From: Fragilariopsis cylindrus CCMP1102
Lineage: Eukaryota > Bacillariophyta > Bacillariophyceae > Bacillariales > Bacillariaceae
DNA: 64,000 bases
Assembly (NCBI GenBank): GCA_900095095.1
Contig: FMBT01000313.1
Location: 1-64,000 of the forward strand
Direction of reading: 5' to 3'
The translations under genes and the position numbers were made by a program. Every line of letters begins with the position of its first letter. Position 1 is the first letter of the stretch. Positions 2,195-55,200 of this stretch are shown in pieces. The notes below the pieces were generated by a model, which had not been told where the DNA came from, made no database searches, and saw only the letters and a program-made list of their open reading frames with translations.

Positions 2195-3613
2195 CTATAA
2201 ATATAATACAGCATCCATTGATTCTATACCAGTTCTGAACATTGTTAATTTTTTTAATGGTTTATTTTCATTACAATACATTGGACCACCATATCTACAT
2301 GATTTATCTGGTGCATTCTTTTTATTTTTACCACCGACAATACCACCATAATTGATTTTTTTGGATGTTGATACAACTGAAACATTATTTATTTGTTGTA
2401 TAATACTATCAGTACTTTCACATACTTTCCCAATTACAATGTAATTATCTAAAAAGTCTTGATTATTCATTAAATTTTCAGTCGGAAATACAGTAAAACC
2501 AAATCCACTATCATTCCCACGTCGTACAGCCATTAAATAGTGTATAGTTGGTTGTGATGTATATTCGGTTATTTTTTTTGCAGTATTAGCAAAACCATCA
2601 CTTTCGCCATTACCACCTGTATTATTATCTTCATTTTCATTATCATTTTTATTTTCATTTTCATTCCATGTTGGGAATTCACGTGATATAAATTTACCAC
2701 TCACACTCCCAAAATCAATTCGATCATTTTGAATGATTCTCCATATTTGTGAATATAAATAATTGACATTATTATTACTTTCAACACCTTCGACACAACT
2801 TCGGTATACTTTATTTGCCTCTAATTGTTCACGTTGGATTAAAAAATCTTTTTTTAATCGTTTACATTCCGCTGGTAATCCAACTTTACTATTAAATAAT
2901 TGTTTGATTTTATTCACTGAATTTGGTGAATCATTACCAAATAATCCAAATACTATACGTTGTGTTTTACTTATTTCAGCGGATGATTCAATTTCAGATT
3001 GTATCCCCAATCCTGCAATATCAACATATACCTTATCAGTAACAACACCAATCTTAGTATTACTATTAGTATTACGAGTAGAAGTATTACGAGTAGTAGT
3101 AGTAGTAGTAGTAGAGTCTTCTTTTTCTTCTTCAACACTACTACCGTATACAGCTTTCGTTGATGATGGTAGTGCAACTACTACTGTGAGAGCAGCAACA
3201 GTTGTTGCAAATTTTTGTTGTGTCTGATACATCCATCTTCTTCGAGATGATGAATAATCAATAATGCTGTCTTTGTCTTTGTCGTCGCTGTCGTTGTTGC
3301 TGATGTCGTCATTTTTAGACGACGACAACGACAAGGAATCATCATCTTCTTCTATTAATCGTACTGATGCTGATGCCCTGACTGATGCCCTTACAAACGA
3401 TGATGCTGATGATGATGATACTGCTGCTGCTGCTGCTGCTGCTGCTGTTGATCGTTTCTGTGATTGCTGCTTCTGCTGCTGCTGAATATTATTATTAGCA
3501 AATGCATCAATAGGAACAACACTAAAATTGATGAAGAGTAGTAGTAGTTGTAGTAATAATGATAATAATTGTGGAAAGCGCAGGTGCAATATCATTGTTG
3601 AAGATTTTGTCAT
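2195..3613 (-). CDS. Thylakoid-lumen cyclophilin-like protein (472 aa)
   Basis: The frame opens further upstream but with TTG; the first ATG is at 3613. That start places a hydrophobic signal peptide (residues 7-35) at the N-terminus, ending in I-D-A-F-A, which fits the Ala-Phe plastid-import motif of diatoms. A low-complexity transit region follows, then R-R-R-W (about 124-127), a hydrophobic stretch (135-148) and a possible A-V-Y cleavage site near 154. This resembles a twin-arginine lumen signal, giving tripartite targeting. The C-terminal part resembles a cyclophilin-type peptidyl-prolyl isomerase fold: VYVDIAG, IVFGLFGNDSPNSVNKIKQLF, GFGFTVFP, DNYIVIGKVCES. The usual FHR...QGGD catalytic region is poorly kept (KVYRSCVEG), so activity is doubtful. 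Family placement is fairly secure; lumen targeting is inference. Confidence 0.72.
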   Translation of the reverse strand: MTKSSTMILHLRFPQLLSLLLQLLLLFINFSVVPIDAFANNNIQQQQKQQSQKRSTAAAAAAAAVSSSSASSFVRASVRASASVRLIEEDDDSLSLSSSKNDDISNNDSDDKDKDSIIDYSSSRRRWMYQTQQKFATTVAALTVVVALPSSTKAVYGSSVEEEKEDSTTTTTTTRNTSTRNTNSNTKIGVVTDKVYVDIAGLGIQSEIESSAEISKTQRIVFGLFGNDSPNSVNKIKQLFNSKVGLPAECKRLKKDFLIQREQLEANKVYRSCVEGVESNNNVNYLYSQIWRIIQNDRIDFGSVSGKFISREFPTWNENENKNDNENEDNNTGGNGESDGFANTAKKITEYTSQPTIHYLMAVRRGNDSGFGFTVFPTENLMNNQDFLDNYIVIGKVCESTDSIIQQINNVSVVSTSKKINYGGIVGGKNKKNAPDKSCRYGGPMYCNENKPLKKLTMFRTGIESMDAVLYL

Positions 3614-14840: not shown

Positions 14841-15990
14841 TTAACAGGATTCAGGTTATGGCTCTCAGCTGAGAGCCACTTTTTGGGGTCAATTTTTTGT
14901 GGGGGTGTATTTCCCTCAAAAAATGGACCTACAGCCCCCTATTGAGACACAGCGCGTCTCCGAATCAGGGCACGTGTCTTTTTATATACTCAATAGAAGT
15001 CTCGTTTGCTTTGTATGGGCCGCACCTACAGCATAATATCGAGCAATAATAATAAATCGGAAGAGCCATAGTAGGAAAATTCGCGGTGACCGTTGGGGAT
15101 CAAATCCGGCACGTGTAATAGTGCGAGGAATATTCTAAGTGATTTTCTGCGCGATTTTTTTATAATTCAAATACTCAAAATATTTATGAAGGCTTACGAA
15201 TCAACGTAACTATTGATGTGGTTGCGTTGGCAATACAGCACCGAGAGTGAAAATACGAACGTTGGTTCGATTCTTCCATGCGTCAAATTTGTACAATTTT
15301 GCACCAGTATTTTTATTATTATCAGCTTCCAAAGATTTTCATCTTATTTTTGAAAATTTCTTTTCTTCAAATTAACGCGTGTTATTAACACGCGTAAAAT
15401 ACTGCAAAATTCCTTATAACAGGAATCCTGTTAACAGGATTCCTGTTATAAGGATTTTTTTGCGATTTTGCGCGTGTTAATAACACGCGTTAATTTGCAG
15501 AAGAAATTTCAAAAAAAAGATGAAAATCTTTGGAGGTGCGAATACATGTGAAGAGAATGACAAAATAAATTAAGAATTGACGCATTAGCAACTCTAACTA
15601 AGTGCTGTTCATCCATATCAATGGATTTTTTTCAACTCAACCACAAGGGCAGTTATTCGATTCATACTGACCCACACACATTTTGGGTATTTAAACAAAA
15701 ATAAATAATCGCGCAGGCATACTGAACTTGATACTTAGCGCAAACCGCAAATTTTCCCACAAGGGCTCTTCCGATTTATTATTATTGCCTCGTATAAACG
15801 CTGTAGGTGCGTCCAATACAAAGAAATTTCGCGTATTTTCACTTAATAAGAAAGCACACGACGTTGAACGGAGACGCGCTGTGTCTCAATAGGGGGGTGT
15901 AAGTCCATTTTTTGAGGGAAATATGCCCCTACAAAAAAAACACCCCAAAAAGTGGCGCCCCGCGGGGCGCCATAACCTGAATCCTGTTAA
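14841..15990. mobile_element. TTAA-flanked tail-to-tail dimer of a tRNA-module TIR element
   Basis: Two related units, 14841-15434 and 15431-15990, face each other in inverted orientation and share a central TTAA (15431-15434). TTAA also sits at both outer ends. The outer 15-nt inverted repeats (CAGGATTCAGGTTAT) match perfectly, and each is followed at the same offset by an 18-nt perfect palindrome (14860-14877 and 15954-15971) whose sequence differs between the two ends. The inner ends read CAGGATTCCTGTTATAAGG. Inside each arm are GAGACACAGCGCGTCTCC, a region with antisense and sense tRNA-like boxes (GGTTCGATTC at 15264-15273 in the left arm), and GCGTGTTATTAACACGC. No transposase is present, so it is non-autonomous. 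TTAA sites are typical of piggyBac-type transposition, but the terminal bases are not the usual CCC, so the family is unassigned. Confidence 0.85.
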
Positions 15991-17662
15991 AAGAGGTTGA
16001 TGGGACGGGATGATTGTTGAGGTTGATTCGGCTGCACATGTGCACTATAGGCTTACTTACACTTGTGCAGTATTTCATGTTGCAGTTCTTGATCACTATG
16101 CACCACAGCTATGTATCCTACAATTGTCCTTGCATTTGGCATGCCTGTTAGTAAAATTGCTAGCAAGAGATAATAGAGATTTCTTGGGAGATCCGGATGA
16201 ATGTATATTTCTGGGGAGATTCAGGCAAAAGCACTATCTGCTAGCTGAGTGCTGATAATAATATCTATATTAGTAGGGATGAGAGATGTTGTGGTATGAG
16301 CCACCTCGAAGATGATTATTTACATTGTACAAAATTTTATCAGACGGACCTGCACAAGGATAGATAATGCACCTCCGCAAAATGACACCATTACAAGAAA
16401 CACCACACACACACAGTAGTTTATATGAGCAAAAAAACACAAAGAATACCATCAGCAAAATTTTGAGCAGGCTAGGCGTGCTCTCAAAATTTAGTAACTC
16501 ACATGAATCCAGTATTATTATTGCTTTTTGTATGCTTACTACTTCATTATATATGTACATGTTGCTAGAGAACAGACCTACCAGCTACTGAAATTATTTT
16601 GTACAAGCAGACACTCACAATATTTTTACAGAGAAAAGTAATTTTATAAGGAGATGCTTATTGTTGTAAACTTCCTCTCACTAGCTGTGTAGATGTTTGG
16701 TTATCTCTCTTTTTTCAGCATATTATATTATCCTTTCATCAGCACCTTTGGTCTGAGTGAGCAGTTATAGTACACAGGCAGTAGTGCAATGGAAACATGT
16801 GTGAGCAACAAATGTGTTAGAAGGAAGCTACAGCATATGGAAAGACCCAAGTGTGACACTTACACGAACTTGCTGATCTATAGTCTCCTCTCTTCTTATG
16901 CACCTCTAATAATGTTGATCGCTTGGAATTATTGTGCTATGATGTATCCGTTATTTTTAAACTCCACATAAAATCCCCCACAACAACCAATTGAACCATG
17001 TGGTTTGATTTGGTTGCACACAAAATTCCTCTTCTTGTTCTTCCTTTTTAGTCACTACTACATTATATTGATCCCCCCTCATGTTGTAGTAGTAGCTATT
17101 TGCCCGATATTTTAGTCAGTTTACTTCCGCCTTGAAATGGATGGCATCATGCATTTTCAACCACAGTACAGCATGCATGCCTTTGTATGGTGTGTGTGTG
17201 TCTGTGTGTTATGCATCATATCTTTGCTGAACAGAGACAGATAATGTTTAAGCCTACAACAACATATGACGAAAGATGACCCATCTAACACTTAATTTGC
17301 TGGTAATAAGCTTTCAAACAGACAGGCAGCATTCATTCTTTACATCCTCAAACACACACAGCTTATGAAGCCTATCAACTGCTAAATATAATAGGTAATA
17401 ATGTTACTCATAGTCACAGATCAAAGAGATTCATATGACAGGGTCTAATCCTAGGTAGGAACATTCACAATGACATTTTTGATTGCGCAATACCTTGTGT
17501 TATGAAAATTATATCATGTGCATTAGAATTAATTAAAGAAATCACATTCATATCATCATGACAATGGAAATGTAACTAATCGAATCTCTCAATGAATATC
17601 AATATATTTAATACAAACTTATTAGACAAAATTGAATACATATATGTGTACTATGTGTACGC
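15991..17662. other. Non-coding spacer between element copies
   Basis: AT-rich DNA with no gene, domain or repeat family that I can recognise. Short open frames (for example 16010-16255) lack start context and motifs. Confidence 0.5.
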
Positions 17663-18255
17663 TTAACAGCTTTCAAGCTATTGCCCCATATATGGGGCAT
17701 GAAAAAGGGGTCCTTTTTTCAAGGGGGTGCTTCTCCCTCAAAAATGGGACTAAAACAGTTCTATTGAGACACAGTACGTCTCCGTTCAACGGCGCGTGTC
17801 TTTTTATATACTCAATAGAAGTCCCGTTTGCTTTGTATGGGCCGCACCTACGCTGTAATAAGCCCGAAAAAATTAATTAGTGACCAGAACCTATTGAGTA
17901 TTCGCGGTTGACCGTTGGGGATTGAACCCGGCGCGTGCAAAAGCCAGTGGAAATATTCTCAGTTGTTTTCTGCGCGATTTTTTTAAAATATAAACACTTA
18001 AAATATTTACACATCTGTACGAATCAACGCATCTTCGCTTGTGGCTGAGTTGGTCACATACCGTCTCATAATAATGTATAGACGCCGGTTCGATCCTCAC
18101 TTGCGTCAAATCTGTACTGTTTTGCACCTTTACTTTTATTATTATCAGCTTCCAAAGATTTTCATATTATTTTGGAAAATTTCTTCTCCAAATTATCGCG
18201 TATTTTTAACACGCGTAAAATACCACCAAATTCCTTATAGCTTGAAAGCTGTTAA
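17663..18255 (+). mobile_element. TTAA-flanked TIR element with tRNA-like modules (monomer)
   Basis: A 593-bp element bounded by TTAA at 17663-17666 and 18252-18255. The 15-nt terminal inverted repeats (CAGCTTTCAAGCTAT) match perfectly with each other but differ from those of the 14.8-kb dimer. After the 5' TIR, at the same offset as in the dimer, lies an 18-nt perfect palindrome, TGCCCCATATATGGGGCA (17682-17699). Internally it matches the dimer arms: CTATTGAGACACAG, TTTTTATATACTCAATAGAAGTC, GCTTTGTATGGGCCGCACCTAC, CTGCGCGATTTTTTT, TTATTATTATCAGCTTCCAAAG, AACACGCGTAAAATAC and CCTTATA before the 3' TIR. A tRNA-Met-like module on + and a B-box-like sequence on - lie in the middle. It encodes no protein. 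Confidence 0.87.
18036..18105 (+). other. tRNA-Met(CAU)-like module inside the TIR element
   Basis: GTGGCTGAGTTGGT (A-box), TCTCATAAT with CAT in the anticodon position (18067-18069) and GGTTCGATCC (B-box, 18087-18096) are spaced as in an elongator tRNA-Met. The anticodon and acceptor stems are degenerate, so this is a tRNA-derived promoter module and not a working tRNA. On the opposite strand, about 120 bp upstream, GGGTTCAATCCCC (17918-17930) looks like a second B-box. Confidence 0.65.
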
Positions 18256-23159: not shown

Positions 23160-23365
23160 ATGTGAACACGATCGATTTCAAAGAAGATCGACTTTCTGCA
23201 GATGACGGCGACGCCGACGGCGACGCCGTTTTTTAAGAACAAAAACATTAACCAAAATACGACGTAAATACAAAGCTCACAAAACTAAAACGAACCACTT
23301 CCAAAACAGAAGTGTCAGACAAAAACAACACACTATCTCTCCTTATTAACCGCAACTGTATCATC

Positions 23366-24844
23366 ATGACTTCGGCAAGTGAAAAGAAAGCGATGTCTCG
23401 CGCAAGTATTGTGTGGGATCAAGCTGAAAAGGGATATTTGTCAGAAGCAGAACGTACTGCAAAGAACTTGGACGTAGAAGGAAAGGGACATTTAACAAGA
23501 GAACAAGCTGTATCGTTGGGTTCACAGTATCAAACTTTGAAGGAAGATAATAAAACAATCAAGAATCAACTATACGGACTAGCAGTCCTCTGTGTTTTAT
23601 TATTCATTGGAACTGTTGCTGGTACTGTGATGGCTGTCAAGAATAGTAAGGATACTGTTGTTGATATGAAAACTGGTGTAATGAAGGTCAAGGATGGTAG
23701 CGGTGGTGTTGACATCGTGACTGTACAGGCTCAAGGAACAACATTTCAAACAACTGGAAGTGTTTTGATGCACGAAGAAACAACAACAGATGGAGAAACT
23801 TTCAAGAAAGTTAATGTTGGACATTGTGTTTCAAGTGAAGATATTGCTAGCATGTGGGTAGCAAATGAAAAAGGATCTGATGCGCGTTTAGTTATTGCTG
23901 ATACTGATACTGTTAGTAGTATCGAACCTGTCACCACTGGCCGTGCTTCATGGAATGACGACCATATTGTGATGGGTGGTATGACCTTCGTTCCAAATCA
24001 ACAATGTACCGATAGCAATCGTCGTAAATTACATGATACGCCATCATTTGATTCTATCTCAATCCATCGTGCATTGAAAGAACGTGTCGATTTTCTTGGC
24101 GGTCGTCGCCTTATTGATAGAGTGTTAGAAGATGGCGGATCGTATGCCACCAATCAATTGATTAACAATCCCAACAAGGTCAACCTCGGAACTGCCGGCA
24201 ACTATGTCATCCTCGGAAAAACTGGCATCACCGGAGGGGCGGGCTCAGATGTTAATGGCGATATGGGCGTCTCGCCCATCACTTCGGCCGCTGTTACTGG
24301 CTTTGGCTTGATCAAGCAAGTCGCAGATGGGTTTTCGACGTCTTCTGTGGTTAATGGAAAGATCTACGCAGCGGACTACAACACCGAAGCCACTCCTGCT
24401 AAATTGACCACCGCGATTGGTAACATGCAGGCTGCATACACTGACTCTCAATCACGTTTGGCATCTAATGGCGCCTACAATAATATCGGTGGAGGCGAAA
24501 TTGGTGGCTTGGATTTGGGACGTGGTGTCTACACTTTCAACACACCAGTTAGCATCACAAGCTCTATGACATTTACCGGAGGTCCTGATGATGTATTTAT
24601 TATCAAGACATCGAAGGGTCTTAAACAAGCTGCGGCTACCAAGGTGATTCTCGCTGGCGGTGCGAAGGCAGAGAACATCTTCTGGTCGGTTGCAGGAACA
24701 GTTTATGTTGGCGCAACTGCACATATGGAGGGTATCATCTTGGTCGCGACATCTGCTACATTCATTACTGGTTCAAGTTTGAACGGCCGTATCTTGTCAC
24801 AGACGGCGGTTAACCTACAGAGCAATGCAATCACTGAAGCATAA
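23366..24844 (+). CDS. Membrane-anchored DUF3494 ice-binding protein, copy 1 (492 aa)
   Basis: The ATG at 23366 is chosen because it aligns with the start of the tandem paralog and shares its CATCATGACTTCG context; an upstream in-frame codon is not ATG. The architecture is a charged cytosolic N-terminus with a degenerate EF-hand-like loop (DVEGKGHLTREQ, about 37-48), one TM helix (70-91) and a unique ectodomain (about 92-265) with QAQGTTFQTTGSV. A C-terminal DUF3494 ice-binding domain (272-490) follows: VNLGTAGNYVILGKTGIT, DMGVSPI, TGFGL, NIGGGEIGGLDLGRGVYTF, KAENIFWSVAGTV, HMEGIILVATSATF, GSSLNGRILSQTAV. Known members adsorb to ice or inhibit recrystallisation. Most are secreted; a type II membrane anchor is unusual. 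Codons become visibly GC-richer in the DUF3494 part. Confidence 0.9.
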   Translation: MTSASEKKAMSRASIVWDQAEKGYLSEAERTAKNLDVEGKGHLTREQAVSLGSQYQTLKEDNKTIKNQLYGLAVLCVLLFIGTVAGTVMAVKNSKDTVVDMKTGVMKVKDGSGGVDIVTVQAQGTTFQTTGSVLMHEETTTDGETFKKVNVGHCVSSEDIASMWVANEKGSDARLVIADTDTVSSIEPVTTGRASWNDDHIVMGGMTFVPNQQCTDSNRRKLHDTPSFDSISIHRALKERVDFLGGRRLIDRVLEDGGSYATNQLINNPNKVNLGTAGNYVILGKTGITGGAGSDVNGDMGVSPITSAAVTGFGLIKQVADGFSTSSVVNGKIYAADYNTEATPAKLTTAIGNMQAAYTDSQSRLASNGAYNNIGGGEIGGLDLGRGVYTFNTPVSITSSMTFTGGPDDVFIIKTSKGLKQAAATKVILAGGAKAENIFWSVAGTVYVGATAHMEGIILVATSATFITGSSLNGRILSQTAVNLQSNAITEA

Positions 24845-26025: not shown

Positions 26026-27579
26026 ATGACTTCGACAACTAAAAAATCACCATTGCCCGTTGAGCAAACGGAGGAGAGTATCAAATGGGATCAAGCCGAG
26101 AAGGGATATTTAACCGACGCTGAACGTATTGCAAAGAACATGGACGTTGATGGGAAAGGACACTTATCAAGAGAACAATCTGTTTCACTAGGTGCACAGT
26201 TTCAAAGCTTGAAAGAAGATAACAAACAAATCAAGAAGAATTTATATGGACTTGCTGTCCTTTGTGTTCTCTTATTCATTGGAACTGTTGTTGGTACTGT
26301 GGTGGCTGTCAGGAACAGTAAGGATACCATTGTTGATATGGAAACCGGTGTAATGAAGGTCAAGGACGGTAGTGATGAGATTGTTACAGTACAGGCACAA
26401 GGAACAACATTCCAAACAACTGGAAGTGTTATGATGAATGAAGAAACAACCACTGATGGAGAAACTTTTACAAAAATTATGGCTGGTAATTGTGTCGCTA
26501 GTGATGATATTGCTAGCATGTGGTTAGCGAATGAAAAAGGAACTGATGCACGTTTAGTTATCACTGATGATACTGATAATGTTAGTAGTATTGAACCTGT
26601 TACCACCGGTCGTGCTTCATGGAACAAAGACCATATTGTTATGGGGGGCATGACCTTCATTCCGAATGAAGAATGTACCAGTAGTAATCGCCGTAAATTA
26701 TTAGAAAGTAAAGACATTGAAGATAATGATATGCCATCATTTGATTCTATTTCAATCCATCGTGCATTGAAAGAACGTGTCGGTTTTCTTAGTGGACGTC
26801 GTCTTCAAGACACCACCAGCGACGCCACATCTACAAGTTATGCTGTTAAGGATCGTACAGCAGCGACCGACCCCGACCCGGTCAATCTGGGAGATGCTGG
26901 TAACTTCGCCATCCTCTCAAAGGCTGGTATCACCAACCTGGTCACCTCAACAATTACCGGTGATATCGCCGTCTCGCCTATCGCTGCGACTGCCATGACT
27001 GGTTTTGGTTTGACCGCAGATGGTACTAATGAATTTTCGACATCTACGGAGGTCGTAGGAAAGGTCTACGCGTCGGACTACGCCGTTCCTACTCCTACTA
27101 AATTGTCCACCGCGGTTTCTAACATGGAAACTGCATATGTCGACACTCAAGGACGTACTCAACCGGATGAATTTTACAACAATATCAACAAAGGCGAAAT
27201 TGGTGGCTTGGAGTTAACAAAGGGTGTCTACATTTTCTCCACAGGTGTTACCATCGGAAAATCTATCAAGTTCAGTGGCAGCGCAACGGACATCTTCATC
27301 ATTAAAACATCCAACGACCTGACACAAACTGCAAACACTAAAGTGCTTCTTGCTGGTGGTGTACTAGCAAAGAACATCTTCTGGTCGGTGGCAGGAAAGG
27401 TTGTGGTGCAAGCAGGTGCGCATATGGAGGGAACCCTCTTGGTCAAGACATCTGCTACATTCATTACTGGTTCCTCTTTGAATGGCCGTGTCTTGTCGCA
27501 GACGGCAGTTGCTCTTGATCAGAATACCATCACTGCTCCGAGTAGTGCGAGTGTGATGAGTGCGGGCACGGCTGCCTAG
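26026..27579 (+). CDS. Membrane-anchored DUF3494 ice-binding protein, copy 2 (517 aa)
   Basis: Tandem paralog of the upstream gene, with the same domain order. It has WDQAEKGYLTDAERIAKNMDV, a degenerate EF-hand-like loop (residues 40-51, DVDGKGHLSREQ, with Gln for the usual Glu at position 12), a TM helix (73-95), the linker ectodomain (96-280) and DUF3494 (about 285-505). Key DUF3494 blocks are NLGDAGNFAILSKAGIT, TGDIAVSPIAATAMTGFGL, NNINKGEIGGLELTKGVYIF, NIFWSVAGKVVVQAGAHMEG and TGSSLNGRVLSQTAV. The N-terminal half is more alike between the copies than the ice-binding half. The protein likely displays the ice-binding domain outside the cell or in a secretory compartment. The copy also duplicated its leader and 3' flank. 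Confidence 0.9.
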   Translation: MTSTTKKSPLPVEQTEESIKWDQAEKGYLTDAERIAKNMDVDGKGHLSREQSVSLGAQFQSLKEDNKQIKKNLYGLAVLCVLLFIGTVVGTVVAVRNSKDTIVDMETGVMKVKDGSDEIVTVQAQGTTFQTTGSVMMNEETTTDGETFTKIMAGNCVASDDIASMWLANEKGTDARLVITDDTDNVSSIEPVTTGRASWNKDHIVMGGMTFIPNEECTSSNRRKLLESKDIEDNDMPSFDSISIHRALKERVGFLSGRRLQDTTSDATSTSYAVKDRTAATDPDPVNLGDAGNFAILSKAGITNLVTSTITGDIAVSPIAATAMTGFGLTADGTNEFSTSTEVVGKVYASDYAVPTPTKLSTAVSNMETAYVDTQGRTQPDEFYNNINKGEIGGLELTKGVYIFSTGVTIGKSIKFSGSATDIFIIKTSNDLTQTANTKVLLAGGVLAKNIFWSVAGKVVVQAGAHMEGTLLVKTSATFITGSSLNGRVLSQTAVALDQNTITAPSSASVMSAGTAA

Positions 27580-48466: not shown

Positions 48467-51400
48467 TTACAAAGTCTTGCATTTCCTCTTGCATGTAGCA
48501 GGACAGAAGAATCTTACTTTCTTTAATTTACCAGTAACTTTATCATTTGTACCTTCGACATCCTTTTTACATCTCTTGACGGGTTTTAAAGCAACGTATA
48601 GATCACATGAAAATTTCCAATTGCCTTGAAATCTGAATGTAAGTAAATTTTCACACTCACTGCGTGGCTTCTTGCATTTCTTCTTACATGTACCAGGACA
48701 AAATTTTCGAACTTTCTTTCCACCAGATTTAGGTTGTATCTTTTTACATCTCTTTACGGGTTTGTAGGCAACGTATGAATCACATGTTCTGGACAGATCA
48801 CCTTCGAATTTAAAGTCAAGATCATTTGAACAGTCAATGGTGGGTACAGGACTAGGCATTGAACTTGAACCAGTACTAGGTTCAGAACTAGATACCAAAC
48901 TTGGAACAGTACTTGGATTGCTACTTGGATCCACACTAGGAGCAGAACTTAGTACAACATTTTGTGATTGACTAGGCCTAAAGCTTGGACCAGAACTTCG
49001 ACCAACACTAGGAACACCACTGCGCAAAGAACTTGGTTCAACACTTGGGACGGTACTCGGTTTGCTACTTGGATCGAGACTAGGAGCAGAACTAGGTACA
49101 TTACTTCGTGATTGACTAGGCTTAAAGCTTGGTACAGCACTAGGAACACCACTGGGCAAAGAACTTGGTTCAAAACTTGGGACAGTACTCGGTGTACTAC
49201 TTGGATCAGCACTAGGAGCAAAACTAGGTACATCACTTGGTGCTTGACTTGGCTTAAAGCTGGGACCAGAACTTGGACCAGCACTCGGTAATGAACTTGG
49301 TGCAAAACTTGGTTGAACACTAGGAATAGAACTAGGTACATCACTTGGTGATTGACTAGGCTTTAAGCTTGGACCAGCAGTAGGATCACCACTAGGCAAA
49401 GGACTTGGTTCAAAAGTTGGGACAGTACTCTGTATACTACTTGGATCCAGACTAGGAGCAGAACTAGGTACAGCACTTGGTGCTTGACTTGGCTTAAAGC
49501 TGGGATCAGCATTAGGATCACCACTAGGACCAGAACTTGGACCAGCACTAGGTAATGAACTTGGTGCAAAACTTGGTTGAACACTAGGAATAGAACTAGG
49601 TACATCACTTGGTGATTGACTAGGCTTTAAGCTTGGACCAGCAGTAGGATCACCACTAGGACCAGAACTTGGACCAGCACTAGGTAATGAACTTGGTGCA
49701 AAACTTGGTTGATCACTAGGAATAGAACTAGGTACATCACTTGGTGATTGACTGGGCTTTAAGCTTGGACCAGCAGTAGGATCACCACTAGGCAAAGGAC
49801 TTGGTTCAAAAGTTGGGACAGTACTTGGTATACTACTTGGATCCAGACTAGGAGCAGAACTAGGTACAGCACTTGGTGCTTGACTTGGCTTAAAGCTGGG
49901 ATCAGAACTTGGACCAGCACTAGGTGATGAACTTGGTGCAAAACTTGGAACAGTACTTGGTTTGTGACTTGGTTCAGCACTAGGAGTAGAACTAGGTACA
50001 CTACTTGGACCAGCACTAGGTGATGAACTTGGTACCAAACTTGGGACAGTACTGGATCTGTTACTTGGATCAGCACTAGGAGTAGAAGTAGGTACATTAC
50101 TTGGATCAGCACTAGGAACAGAACTAGGTACATCACTTGGTGAAAGACTTGGCTTCTGGCTTGGACTAGAACTTGGAGCAGCACTAGGTGATGAACTAGG
50201 TGGTGAACTTGGTACCAAACTTGGGACAGTACTTGATATGTTACTCGGATCAGCAGTAGGAGCAGAGCTACCTACAACACTAGGAGCAGAACTAGGCTCA
50301 AATCCAGGATTAAAGCAGGCTGTTTCATAATTTTGGCACCAAGGACCTACGTTTGGAACCGGGTCATCCACTTGTTCTGGACAACCAGATGAGTAGAACA
50401 TACCAGTGGTAACAACATTTCCAGAAGTCTTTCCAGCCCATGTGGAAAGACATTGATTAAAAGAAGATGCACCACTAAACATCTCTTTCATGCTCCCTGC
50501 ACTGGATATGTTCCAATCATCAATAGGTTGGTTGAAAGCAGAATTTAGAAACATATATGTCATATCCACTACACTTGACGTGTCCCATTTAGCAATAGGC
50601 TGGTTGAAAGGAGCCTTATGAAACATCAGAAACATATTCAGTACACTTGACGTGTTCCAATCACCAATAGGGTGGTTAAAATTTGTATTACGAAACATAC
50701 TCGTCATTTCCGTTACACTTGACGTGTCCCAATCACCAATAGGCTGGTTGAAAGGAGCATCAACAAACATTCGTAACATATCCAGTACACTTGACGTGTT
50801 CCAATCACCAATAGGTTGGTTGAAATTTGTACTACGAAACATAGTATACATTGATGTTACAGCCGATGTATCCCAATCACCAATAGGCTGGTTGAAAGGA
50901 GCATCATAAAACATTAGTCTCATATCTAGTACACTTGACGTGTTCCAATCACCAATAGGTTGGTTGAAGTTTGTAGCTGTACGAAACATATTAGACATTT
51001 CCTTTACACTTGACGTGTCCCATCTACCAATGGGCTGGTTGAAAGGAGCATCATAAAACATTAGTCCCATATCCAGTACACTTGACGTGTTCCAATCACC
51101 AATAGGTTGGTTGAAATTTGCAGCTTTACTAAACATATTAGAAATTTTCTTTACACTTGACATGTCCCATCTACCAATGGGTTGATTGAAAGAAGCCTCA
51201 GAAAACATAAATCCCATATCCAGTACACTTGACGTGTTCCAATCACCAATAGGTTGGTTGAAATTTGTAGCTTTACAAAACAAATCAGACATTTCCTTCA
51301 CTCTTGACGTGTCCCATCTACCAATGGGCTGATTGAAAGGAGCATCATAAAACATAAGTCCCATATCCAGTACACTTGACGTGTTCCAATCACCAATAGG

Positions 51401-52267
51401 TTGGTTGAAATTTGCAGCTGAACGAAACATATTAGACATTTTCTTTACACTTGACATGTTCCAATCACCAATAGGTTGGTTGAAATTTGCAGCTTTACGA
51501 AACATATTCGTCATTGATGTTACGTTCGAGGTATCCCAACACTCCAATGGGCCATTAAATGCATCCTGCCTGTTGAAAGCTTCACTCATATCAGTAACTT
51601 TACTTGTATTCCAGCAATTGAGATCTAACCAAACAACAATGGGGTCGCCTGGACAAGCTGAAGTATCATCACCAATACATTTATCAACCAAATTTTTGAA
51701 GACTCCTCTATACTGGGAAACATCAGGATGAAAATCATACTCACAATACTGTGAGCAAGCAGATGCTTGAAGGCTACGTTCATCACGTGCAACAGTATTA
51801 GTAACAGCATCCTCCCAGTAAGAAGCTGGAATGTCAGATGAAGCACTGGGATCGCTGGTGTCCCAATACAAAATTGGGACATCAATGATGTCGGTACAAA
51901 CTCCAGAATCCTTTTCAATAGATGAAGACAATTTCTTCATATTGTTGTTGATGCAAATCTGCTGCCTTGAGGAGGAGCATGAGGACAATGGAAGTCTACC
52001 AGCATCAATCTTGTTGGTTGTGCTAAGTGTAACAGGAGGGGAACATGCTTCCTTACCACCACCAGAACTAGAATAGGCAGACTCAGCAGTAGGATGGGAT
52101 GGTGTTGCTGCTTCATCTTTCTTGTTGTAATCCTCAACGTCGTTACCATCCACGTTGTGAATTCTGGTTGATTCAGAACCGGCCTCAAGACGGTTAGCAC
52201 CCGCTAACTTAGCAGTAACAAGGACGGGAGCAAGTAAGGTGCTGATGCAGGCAGGAGAAAACTTCAT
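48467..52267 (-). CDS. Secreted BspA-like repeat / Pro-Ser-rich / ShKT-like surface protein (1266 aa)
   Basis: The upstream in-frame codon is TTG; the first ATG at 52267 starts a clear signal peptide ([24 protein letters not shown]). After a ~200-residue head, about 226-596 carries roughly fifteen 23-25-residue BspA/DUF285 units of the form W-(D/N)-T-S-S-V-x-x-M-x-x-MF-x-x-A-x-FNQPIG. They are arranged as alternating pairs, NTSSVLDM then DTSSVKEM. About 650-1140 is a Pro-Ser repeat region (PSSxPSAxPS). The C-terminus has two Cys modules, each with CKK and FCP-x-TCK-x-KC, resembling ShKT-type folds. This suits a large extracellular adhesion or recognition protein, with a repeat head displayed on a rigid stalk. 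No TM anchor is visible. Confidence 0.85.
48850..51600 (-). repeat. Coding repeats: Pro-Ser array and DUF285 array
   Basis: 48850-50320 holds 12-bp P-S-x-x units in larger near-identical blocks of 150-250 bp (for example around 49360 and 49620). 50480-51600 holds ~70-bp DUF285 units in pairs of about 145 bp. Both point to recent unequal crossing-over. Confidence 0.9.
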
Positions 52268-55200
52268 TATGACAAATAATGATTTATTTGCTGTGAGTTG
52301 TATTGTAAAAAAAAAGAAACAAGAAAATTGAAAAAGGAGAAGGATTGAATTTAACAATAATGTGAGAAAAATTATAGCACTGGTTCATAATGGTGCCTGA
52401 TTGATATCTAGTTGCATGTATGATACATTGCACATGGAACAATGGAGACATTGACGGTGACGACATAAAGGCATGTAAATAATGATAAACGAGGATGACA
52501 CTATAAGATATTTTGCTGTTGTTGTTGTTGTTGTTGTTGATGTTCTTCTTCTCACTTTGGTGAGGGTAGTGGCGGTATTAGACTGTATGTGTAAAGGTTT
52601 TTGCAACCATCACTGTGCACTTCACAGGATAAATGATAATTTTTTTTAATATACTGGCCCTTGGAGTGACGGATTTCGTTGATAAAGTCGCGTTTGTTAA
52701 GTAACCACGACAGATGGCAAGTTGACGTCGTGGCCACGCGTCGTGTTTGTTGCGCCTGTGCATGCGCCAAAACGTTGTGATGCGGTGCTGTTAATTAAAT
52801 TGTGATCGTTGGTAAGTACACGCGCCAAAATGTCCCTCCTTCAACCAAAAATGACGTCACAAAGACGTCCGTCACAAAAACGTCCCTTTACAACCAAAAA
52901 ATGACGCTCCAAAAACCATGGTGTATTACAGTACCATATCATGCCGCAATTTCCAGCAATTATCATTCATCCTTATAATAAATTTGTTGGTGATTATACC
53001 TATCGGATGCATTTAATTTGGACGACAAATTTCGAAGCCAATCTTGGAATCTAATTACAAGCTAAAATTTGTTCACGACGTTCAAGTGAGGTGAACTATT
53101 AATACGTACACATCATGCCTAGTCGATTACGTATGCTCATGCCGTCAAGTTGAGGTATGATAATACCGAAGCATGCGAAGGAATGGAGTTCAAGCCATAC
53201 CTGTGTGGTGGTTGCCTGCTACTGCTGCTGCTTCGTGTGTAGTAGTGTGTATGTACTCTTCATCTGAAGGCAGTACATCATATTCTAACACGATGGTGTC
53301 TTTTCTTGTGAGTCGATTTGAATTCGTTTCTCTCTTTTGTTCTCGTTCTCGCTCTCTATCTCTTCATTTGTTCGTTGTTTTTCTTCTACGCAACGTAGAG
53401 TGATGATTTGCGATAATAAATGTCCGCAGTCGATCAGATGCTCTTTGTTTGCTAAAGTATTATATTTATTTATTTTTATTGAAAGCACACATATACCGTT
53501 GATCATTACTTTTTTACCATAATTTATTGTACATTGACATCACCGTTTTCGACGACAACAGCAGGACACGCAACACACTACAATACAAAAGTACTTACGT
53601 TTGTTAGTATATCAATATGTGAGAATAATTCTTGATAAGGTCCCTTCTTTTTGGTACTTGAATTATTTGTTCTTCACTTGTCTTCCACAATCTCCCTTAT
53701 AATTCAAGATCGTGAGAGATGTATAGATTGTAGTAGTTTATAATATATGATGATGATGATAATCGATGTTCGATGTTCGATGTTCGGCTAGAATATGTGG
53801 AAAGAATGAATCAGTATCAGGATTAATCATCATAGTCATTATTATTCTTGTTCTCCGTCATTAAATTAACTTAAAGAATTGCGTTTCGGAAGGATTAAAA
53901 TTATCATGGTCATTATTCTTCTTGTTCTCTGTACATACTGTAATTATACTATTATAGTATAATATACTGCATATGCAGGTTGGATTGCTGTATTTACATC
54001 GCCTGCATCGCTTTGGACTTGGGAACTTTTTTTCGGGACTTTTCCGCGTCTAACACAGTAGTCACTCGCGACTATATTTCGACCTCATTTCACGCGCGCG
54101 CCAACAACACTTAATACACTGTACTACATTATTTGATTTTTTAAAACGTGAGAGTCGACCTCGACTCATGTCACATGTATTTTGCAGTCTCGTCGACTCG
54201 AAGAATCAATCGAATCAATCGATCATACGAATTGCTGCAAGCAGCGAGTAAGCAAACAATCTGCTGAGCAATAAATGTTGATAATAATATTATTATTATG
54301 TACTCTACATGAAAACAATGATACTAAGTGGCGGTACTGTAGAGCGTTTGTGACAGCGTAAATAATAACCCCGTACTTTTTACACGGTAAACGAGCGAAG
54401 CAAAGGGCAGTTTGTTTGGTGTCAAGAATGTTACACAGAACAAGAGCAATCTAGCAATCGATCGATCAATCAATCATCAATTGGGAATTAGAATGAATGA
54501 ATGATATCAACAACAACAACAACAGAAAACAGTACAGAGTACAGTACAGTACAGTACAGTACAGTACAAGATAGTACACAAGGCGCCATACATGGACGTG
54601 TGCGGTACTAATGGATACGACACGACCACCATGTATGACATTAAGAAGCAAAATGAAGGGATTAAATAAATGATAACAACAACAGCAACAACAAAAAGCA
54701 CACCAATATGAATTAATTTATTTAGTTACAGTACCATGCTGATCCAGTGCAAACAAGAAGACAGGCATATAATTCATTATCAATATGAGTATCCATATAC
54801 GAATGAACATCGAATTTGCTTAATACTTCAACAACCTAAGCAAGGCAATACTAGTAGACGAGTATGAAGCAAGCAATAACTAATTAATGTATCTCTCTTG
54901 CGGCGGGGGTGTATGCACTTCTTCTTTCGTTGGTTCATCCTTTACAAAATTTGTATTGATTTGAGATTCAAGTACAAAATGTAATGTAATTCATTCTTTT
55001 CAAGAATAAACAACAACAACAACATGCACATTTGACTTTTTAAAACGTGAGAGTCGATTCATATCATGTCATTGCAGTCGAGTCGAGTCGAATCGAATCG
55101 AGTCTTAAGAGTCCAAGCAAGCAAGCGATCTGCATTAACTTATTTTGTGGTTTCATACTATATAATATTATGCTACTTTAAAATAAAAATAAATTTATCT

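Follow-up and report, generated by a model that had tools for sequence, protein, structure and literature searches.

The stretch of DNA analysed here, referred to as the window, comprises positions 1 to 64,000 of the forward strand of contig FMBT01000313.1 (C297 among our contig handles) in the Fragilariopsis cylindrus CCMP1102 assembly GCA_900095095.1, and our subject is a group of short TTAA-bounded elements that it carries between 14841 and 18255. Judged by their sequence, the segments 14841-15434, 15431-15990 and 17663-18255 are three non-autonomous elements of the piggyBac type, that is, miniature inverted-repeat transposable elements (MITEs), each with terminal inverted repeats (TIRs) and, inside the 5' TIR, a palindrome that differs from element to element. 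A preliminary description of this locus had noted 5'-type ends at 14841 (plus strand), 15990 (minus strand) and 17663 (plus strand), each made of TTAA, a 15-nt TIR reading CAG...TAT and an 18-nt perfect palindrome that begins exactly 19 nt from the first T, and all of this was found again, as was the alignment of the interiors (77% between elements 1 and 3, 71% between elements 1 and 2). Its reading of 14841-15990 as a single element, on the other hand, was ruled out: there are two elements here that abut at their 3' ends and have the TTAA at 15431-15434 in common, so the TIRs that had been compared with each other were two 5' ends. The perfect TIR match reported within each element holds for element 3 (15/15) and does not hold for elements 1 and 2 (13/15, CAGGATTCAGGTTAT versus CAGGATTCCTGTTAT). 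The parts of the three elements, with the palindromes as proposed sites for a dimer of the cysteine-rich domain (CRD) of a transposase, are as follows.

14841..15434, plus strand: element 1, non-autonomous piggyBac-type element (MITE), TTAA to TTAA
14845..14859, plus strand: element 1, 5' TIR CAGGATTCAGGTTAT
14860..14877, no strand: element 1, palindrome GGCTCTCAGCTGAGAGCC, putative CRD-dimer site, of the class that accompanies CRD residue K in 2/3 elements read
15375..15395, no strand: element 1, 3' subterminal palindrome ACGCGTGTTATTAACACGCGT, a motif that recurs in many 3' ends
15416..15430, minus strand: element 1, 3' TIR CAGGATTCCTGTTAT (minus-strand reading), 13/15 match to its own 5' TIR
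15431..15434, no strand: TTAA used by both element 1 and element 2, whose 3' ends abut here (overlapping matches 15416-15434, minus, and 15431-15449, plus)
15431..15990, minus strand: element 2, non-autonomous piggyBac-type element in inverse orientation
15435..15449, plus strand: element 2, 3' TIR CAGGATTCCTGTTAT
15954..15971, no strand: element 2, palindrome GGCGCCCCGCGGGGCGCC, putative CRD-dimer site, of the class that accompanies CRD residue R in 7/8 elements read
15972..15986, minus strand: element 2, 5' TIR CAGGATTCAGGTTAT (minus-strand reading)
17663..18255, plus strand: element 3, non-autonomous piggyBac-type element of the CAGCTT sub-group
17667..17681, plus strand: element 3, 5' TIR CAGCTTTCAAGCTAT, 15/15 match to its own 3' TIR
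17682..17699, no strand: element 3, palindrome TGCCCCATATATGGGGCA, putative CRD-dimer site (TGC class); an identical one lies on a 3.5-kb element at C195
18237..18251, minus strand: element 3, 3' TIR

When two mismatches were allowed, the TIR pattern had six matches in the window, all of them exact; over 100 shuffles the mean was 1.1 and none reached six. The overlap of neighboring elements in a shared TTAA, which is 3'-to-3' within 14841-15990, was seen in identical form at C449:12680-12713, C567:10287-10320 and C809:73663-73696, on three contigs that look like copies of one segment. Such an arrangement suggests that one copy can insert into the TTAA flanking another.

Long relatives of the window elements

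Across the genome searched (67.9 Mb, 818 contigs), the TIR pattern TTAACAGNNTTCNNGNTAT, which itself requires TTAA, has 273 exact matches and the reversed pattern has none; TTAA was also present at most of the ends that were aligned without requiring it. Pairing the 268 listed ends in opposite orientation gave at least 50 short elements (up to 600 nt) and at least 28 long ones (3.36-3.55 kb), besides elements of odd length, these counts being lower bounds with one TIR class incomplete among the ends listed. TIR pairs co-vary per copy, a check that had been suggested for this locus, as the class agrees at both ends in 43/50 short and 27/28 long listed pairs (shuffled means 16.6 and 9.8, respectively). 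With element 3 as the query, 40 of 197 candidates were scored and 48 matches were listed, many of which begin only at query position 45, behind the palindrome. In viral contigs one 5' pattern had no match, in a set that may omit records near this genome.

The long elements that were compared match those of the window over the first ~150 nt, and the final ~28-39 nt resemble each other too. Among the six long elements compared, L081 is the nearest to element 1 (89% over the 5' 145 nt, 97% over the last 29 nt), L084 is the nearest to element 2 (91% over the 5' 157 nt), and L078 is the nearest to element 3 (80% over the first 163 nt, 96% over the last 28 nt), while the interiors of the window elements match none of the six. 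The palindromes of L081 and L084 are identical to those of elements 1 and 2, respectively.

All four long elements scanned contain PF13843 (L077, E 7e-12; L078, 3.1e-12; L084, 1e-11; L080, 8.3e-12), with scores of 45.2-46.9 bits against a curated cut-off of 22.4 and with matches that span profile positions 149/150-349 of 349 in L077, L078 and L080. According to a passage in PMC8086355, PF13843 (DDE_Tnp_1_7) is the domain characteristic of piggyBac-like transposases. At the level of sequence the four are shown to be of the piggyBac type, with PF13843 followed by a Cys/His-rich C-terminus, taken here as the CRD. In it one H, six C and two H, nine positions in all, do not vary among five sequences, and its Cys frame recurs in most CRD starts read. 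Several long copies have broken reading frames, and the transposase frames of L077 and L080 contain an in-frame low-complexity stretch in the middle of the protein (runs of V, then of S), possibly an unspliced intron.

When L084 was compared in 200-nt segments with four elements of the CAGGATT TIR group (L077, L086, L080 and L081), identity was 0.83-0.96 over 1-600, 0.58-0.82 over 601-2800 and 0.78-0.97 over 2801-3200, the last being the CRD region. By this measure the transposase core looks older, or less exchanged, than the element ends and the CRD region, which may be a sign of block exchange between L084 and the CAGGATT-group elements; selection on the CRD could add to the higher identity of its region. 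Ends and CRD that are more alike than the core would fit with ends and CRD working as a set.

Variation of the palindrome

The palindrome occupies bp 16-33 from the tip and adjoins the TIR. We used 67 five-prime ends (at least 320 nt, no 3'-type start; an earlier list of 74 held some 3' ends, as judged by eye) from the fetched loci, and a 7-bp dyad was perfect at the exact offset in 46/67 and imperfect there in 21/67, in some cases through indels. No palindrome adjoined the TIR in the 3' ends listed, which were aligned without requiring one. Thirty distinct 18-nt variants were chosen by hand from the aligned ends, leaving out forms of other length or truncated (L006/L012, L088, L027, L052, L054, C614, C303), the palindrome-less L034/L036, and L076; strongly degraded ends (e.g. 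L021, L023, L042, L046) were not counted. Among these 30, 92.9% of arm cells are paired, compared to 70.6% upon shuffling, and the covariation score is 0.504, compared to 0.123, with none of 500 shuffles as high in either case and no slid version above 0.115; when L076 was added (31 variants), the paired fraction was 93.1% against 70.7%. The genome-wide test therefore favors the proposal, made from this locus alone, that symmetry is kept while sequence changes, and compensatory change is strong. That the palindrome varies freely was borne out only in part: variants are many and pairing is kept, but positions 2, 3 and 5, like those they pair with, show little or no change, variation being concentrated at pairs 4-15, 6-13 and 7-12 and at the center, and several types recur many times in the genome.

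A 7-bp stem with a variable 4-nt center would also suit a single strand, of DNA or RNA, that folds and is recognised by its fold, as hairpins are at IS200/IS605 or Helitron ends. We hold this explanation to be extremely unlikely, because G-T wobble pairs account for only 4/210 pair cells among the 30 variants, unlike the usual drift of RNA, because specific outer bases are kept, and because PF13843 was the sole Pfam family in the six frames scanned, with no HUH family and three frames without a match. Hairpin-recognised transposition, as put forward in the preliminary description, is moreover not needed, since a protein dimer that reads the DNA duplex calls for this symmetry as well.

Compared with its flanks, the palindrome evolves much more rapidly, and the changes in its arms are paired. 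Among 39 pairs of ends with less than 2% divergence in the ~203 nt downstream (mean 1.0%), average divergence is 24.8% in the palindrome and 5.1% in the TIR; 14/39 pairs have identical palindromes. C205 and C44, for example, have the same TIR, 1/203 differences downstream, 10/18 in the palindrome, and different CRDs. C44 and C52 share 98.3% identity across 3,534 positions, and a single swapped pair (2/18) sets their palindromes apart. An asymmetric center was also observed in both orientations across copies (C44, C52 and C582 versus C192, C184 and others), namely GGCTCGGGGTGCCGAGCC and GGCTCGGCACCCCGAGCC, and GGCTCGCGGTGGCGAGCC and GGCTCGCCACCGCGAGCC.

A template-based end-repair cycle, the other option of the preliminary description, stays hypothetical. 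Template switching could still be the way in which both arms change together, and replication template switching is what underlies quasi-palindrome correction. If such a process copied arm onto arm and flipped the center, the palindrome might stay symmetric and yet variable without any selection, and both the pair swapped between C44 and C52 and the centers found in either orientation would agree with this. As a complete account, however, purely mutational upkeep seems to us very unlikely, as it leaves the nearly fixed positions 2, 3 and 5, the fixed 19-nt offset and the link to a CRD residue described below unexplained, and imperfect copies do exist in the proportion given above. Imperfect palindromes tested against copy divergence gave a null result (medians 0.093 and 0.059, p = 0.18; Spearman 0.21, p = 0.09) that argues neither for nor against it.

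The palindrome and the cysteine-rich domain

In 14 long elements the residues of the CRD went with the palindrome, and this was the source of an initial two-residue rule, from which nine places were predicted; five of their CRDs were read, with four exact and one partial agreement. The rule was dropped after a blind test, described below, in favor of a single residue, x in the CRD motif [AP]YxSKY, which fits 19/21 GGC-type elements with a CRD: M is found with GGCTCG (5/5), P with GGCGCCA (5/5), R with GGCGCCC (7/8) and K with GGCTCTC (2/3). The table behind these counts holds 25 elements, 21 of them of the GGC type, and leaves out C788, C603, C599:16092, C558 and C579, whose CRD was unread (the palindrome was read for C558 and C579), C195, which has a stop codon in the CRD, and palindrome-bearing ends without a located CRD (e.g. 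C297:75749, C581). In 20,000 shuffles a fit between residue and palindrome as high as this never occurred, and the same was true for the CKYxx residues alone, whereas for TIR type it occurred 2,516 times; with 14 non-redundant rows the corresponding counts were 5 for YxSKY, 79 for CKYxx and 11,596 for the TIR. As a correlation, palindrome class therefore goes with the CRD residue and not with TIR type. The CAGCATT TIR group repeats the associations of the CAGGATT group (C89, C299, C476 and C723 with R, C420 and C504 with M), so that those of M and R are found in two TIR groups.

Given that the elements are few and related, that ends and CRD region look swapped as blocks between two groups, and that only 3/6 blind predictions were right, it could be argued that palindrome and CRD were simply co-inherited in sub-families shuffled by recombination, and that the residue match has no functional meaning. 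Such hitch-hiking is, in our opinion, unlikely. In the shuffles the palindrome is linked to the CRD, ~2.8 kb away, but not to the TIR right next to it; M and R keep their associations in either TIR group; and the contrast between C205 and C44 lies within the palindrome and not beside it.

The reading that we prefer is that the palindrome is most likely a site for a CRD dimer. The window elements would be MITE-type passengers of a piggyBac family with at least 28 long elements, with which they share TTAA and the TIR pattern, and bp 16-33 would be the place where two CRDs, each contributed by a different transposase protomer, come together as a dimer on one element end. Such a pair would read the same half-site twice, so both arms would have to change together, while the TIR, if read by other domains, would be free of this rule; it would also be explained why the palindrome is symmetric, keeps a fixed offset and occurs at one end. 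We infer that CRD and palindrome act as a lock-and-key module whose specificity has been switched repeatedly, so that the family is split into sets, each mobilised by its own type of CRD, and each of the window MITEs would carry a different key. The second arm might follow the first through selection on mutations in two steps, through short conversion events or through template switching within the palindrome. Overall, we consider it probable that the transposon is of a known kind and that, within one genome, its CRD and palindrome switch specificity together, with the window MITEs as passengers. A more specific possibility, tentative and on balance doubtful, is that both half-sites change at once when template switching or an inversion takes place inside the palindrome, so that the CRD site jumps from class to class and one or two CRD residues re-key the transposase. 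If that were true, the family would escape its own MITEs repeatedly, and the residues M, P, K and R would make up a small natural recognition code for the piggyBac CRD.

Several of our results weigh against a CRD-dimer site that switches together with its reader. The blind prediction of palindromes from the CRD by the two-residue rule was right for C420, C299 and C504 and wrong for C476, C723 and C303, and the one-residue rule, adopted after that test, is post hoc. Two cases depart from this rule: C266/L088, whose frame is broken, combines R and GGCTCG, and C303 combines K and a truncated GGCGCCC. For several palindrome types (e.g. GGCTCCC...GGG[AC]GCC) no matching CRD was among those read. 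Because the elements are related, shuffles that ignore relatedness overstate the evidence, and the CAGCATT group, with seven entries in the table, was represented by whole sequences of L084 and L088 only, the core being compared without the rest. The palindrome of L078, TGCTCCAATAATGGCGCC (TGCTCC), is related to that of element 3, TGCCCCATATATGGGGCA (TGCCCC), but differs from it. Two of the five measures applied to the 30 variants were weaker, in that pairs changed on both sides (5/7) were matched by 22/500 shuffles and the number of pair types by 27/500. As for the domain itself, a Pfam scan of the CRDs found no zinc-ribbon above cut-off and one sub-threshold zinc-ribbon match (L080), AlphaFold returned low-confidence models (mean pLDDT of 32.9 for the transposase and 38.9 for the CRD), and no solved piggyBac structure was matched by sequence, the L077 protein matching nothing and two profiles giving weak matches to RPA70 only.

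With these points taken into account, the pattern is real and beyond chance, and in kind it is explained by piggyBac biology; the joint change of site and reader is unusual, and no report of it within one family was found in literature searches covering passages of open-licence papers. A single genome in which site and reader co-vary among some two dozen relatives offers a code within reach of assays that combine small CRD proteins with short duplexes, a concrete picture of an arms race between autonomous elements and MITEs, and a natural source of variants from which independent piggyBac tools might be designed.

As for other features of the window, look-alikes of tRNA promoter boxes were noted by eye in the MITE interiors at 18043-18100 and 15215-15280 (TGGCTGAGTTGG, GGTTCGATC). 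A reading of the interior as a tRNA or other RNA gene, based on a B-box-like GGTTCGAT and an A-box-like stretch, was rejected, as ARAGORN found no tRNA and the six Rfam matches, all within 15371-15561, did not reach gathering score. Elsewhere in the window lie two genes for ice-binding proteins (PF11999), neighbors of each other, at 23312-24844 (E 6.6e-53) and 26026-27579 (E 4.6e-55), and a long reading frame at 48467-52357 has five DUF285 stretches and a PT repeat; these proteins would point to a polar alga, perhaps a diatom.

Comparison with known systems

Kolobok and Sola3 transposons also use TTAA as their target site, with different transposases; the elements scanned here have TTAA in common with them but match PF13843. 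MITEs derived from piggyBac are short and combine the ends of an autonomous piggyBac with an unrelated interior. Unlike the usual ones, those described here form several sets with different palindromes beside otherwise very similar ends.

The closest parallels are within the piggyBac type itself. As described in passages of PMC7351741, piggyBac of Trichoplusia ni has TTAA, a short TIR and asymmetric ends, as is the case here, and a transposase with a C-terminal CRD, to which the Cys/His-rich C-terminus found here would correspond; a palindrome at bp 17-33 of its left end is gripped by two CRDs, in comparison to bp 16-33 for the palindrome in F. cylindrus. It differs in that piggyBac has a 19-bp repeat on both ends, whereas here there are many palindromes, which adjoin the TIR at one end only and vary between near-identical copies. 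In piggyBat of Myotis lucifugus, according to passages of PMC11707139 and PMC13405395, two CRDs bind an imperfect palindrome just inside one tip, at the left end only and unrelated in sequence to that of piggyBac; in that case, however, there are three left-end palindromes with a GCGGGA motif, and those passages report no rapid change within the family. The ends in our window had been thought to follow the rule of no described family, but they belong to piggyBac-type elements, and since passages of PMC7351741 and PMC11707139 place a palindrome bound by a CRD dimer near this position in the left ends of piggyBac and piggyBat, a structure that is kept while its sequence is not is what a CRD-dimer site would be expected to show.

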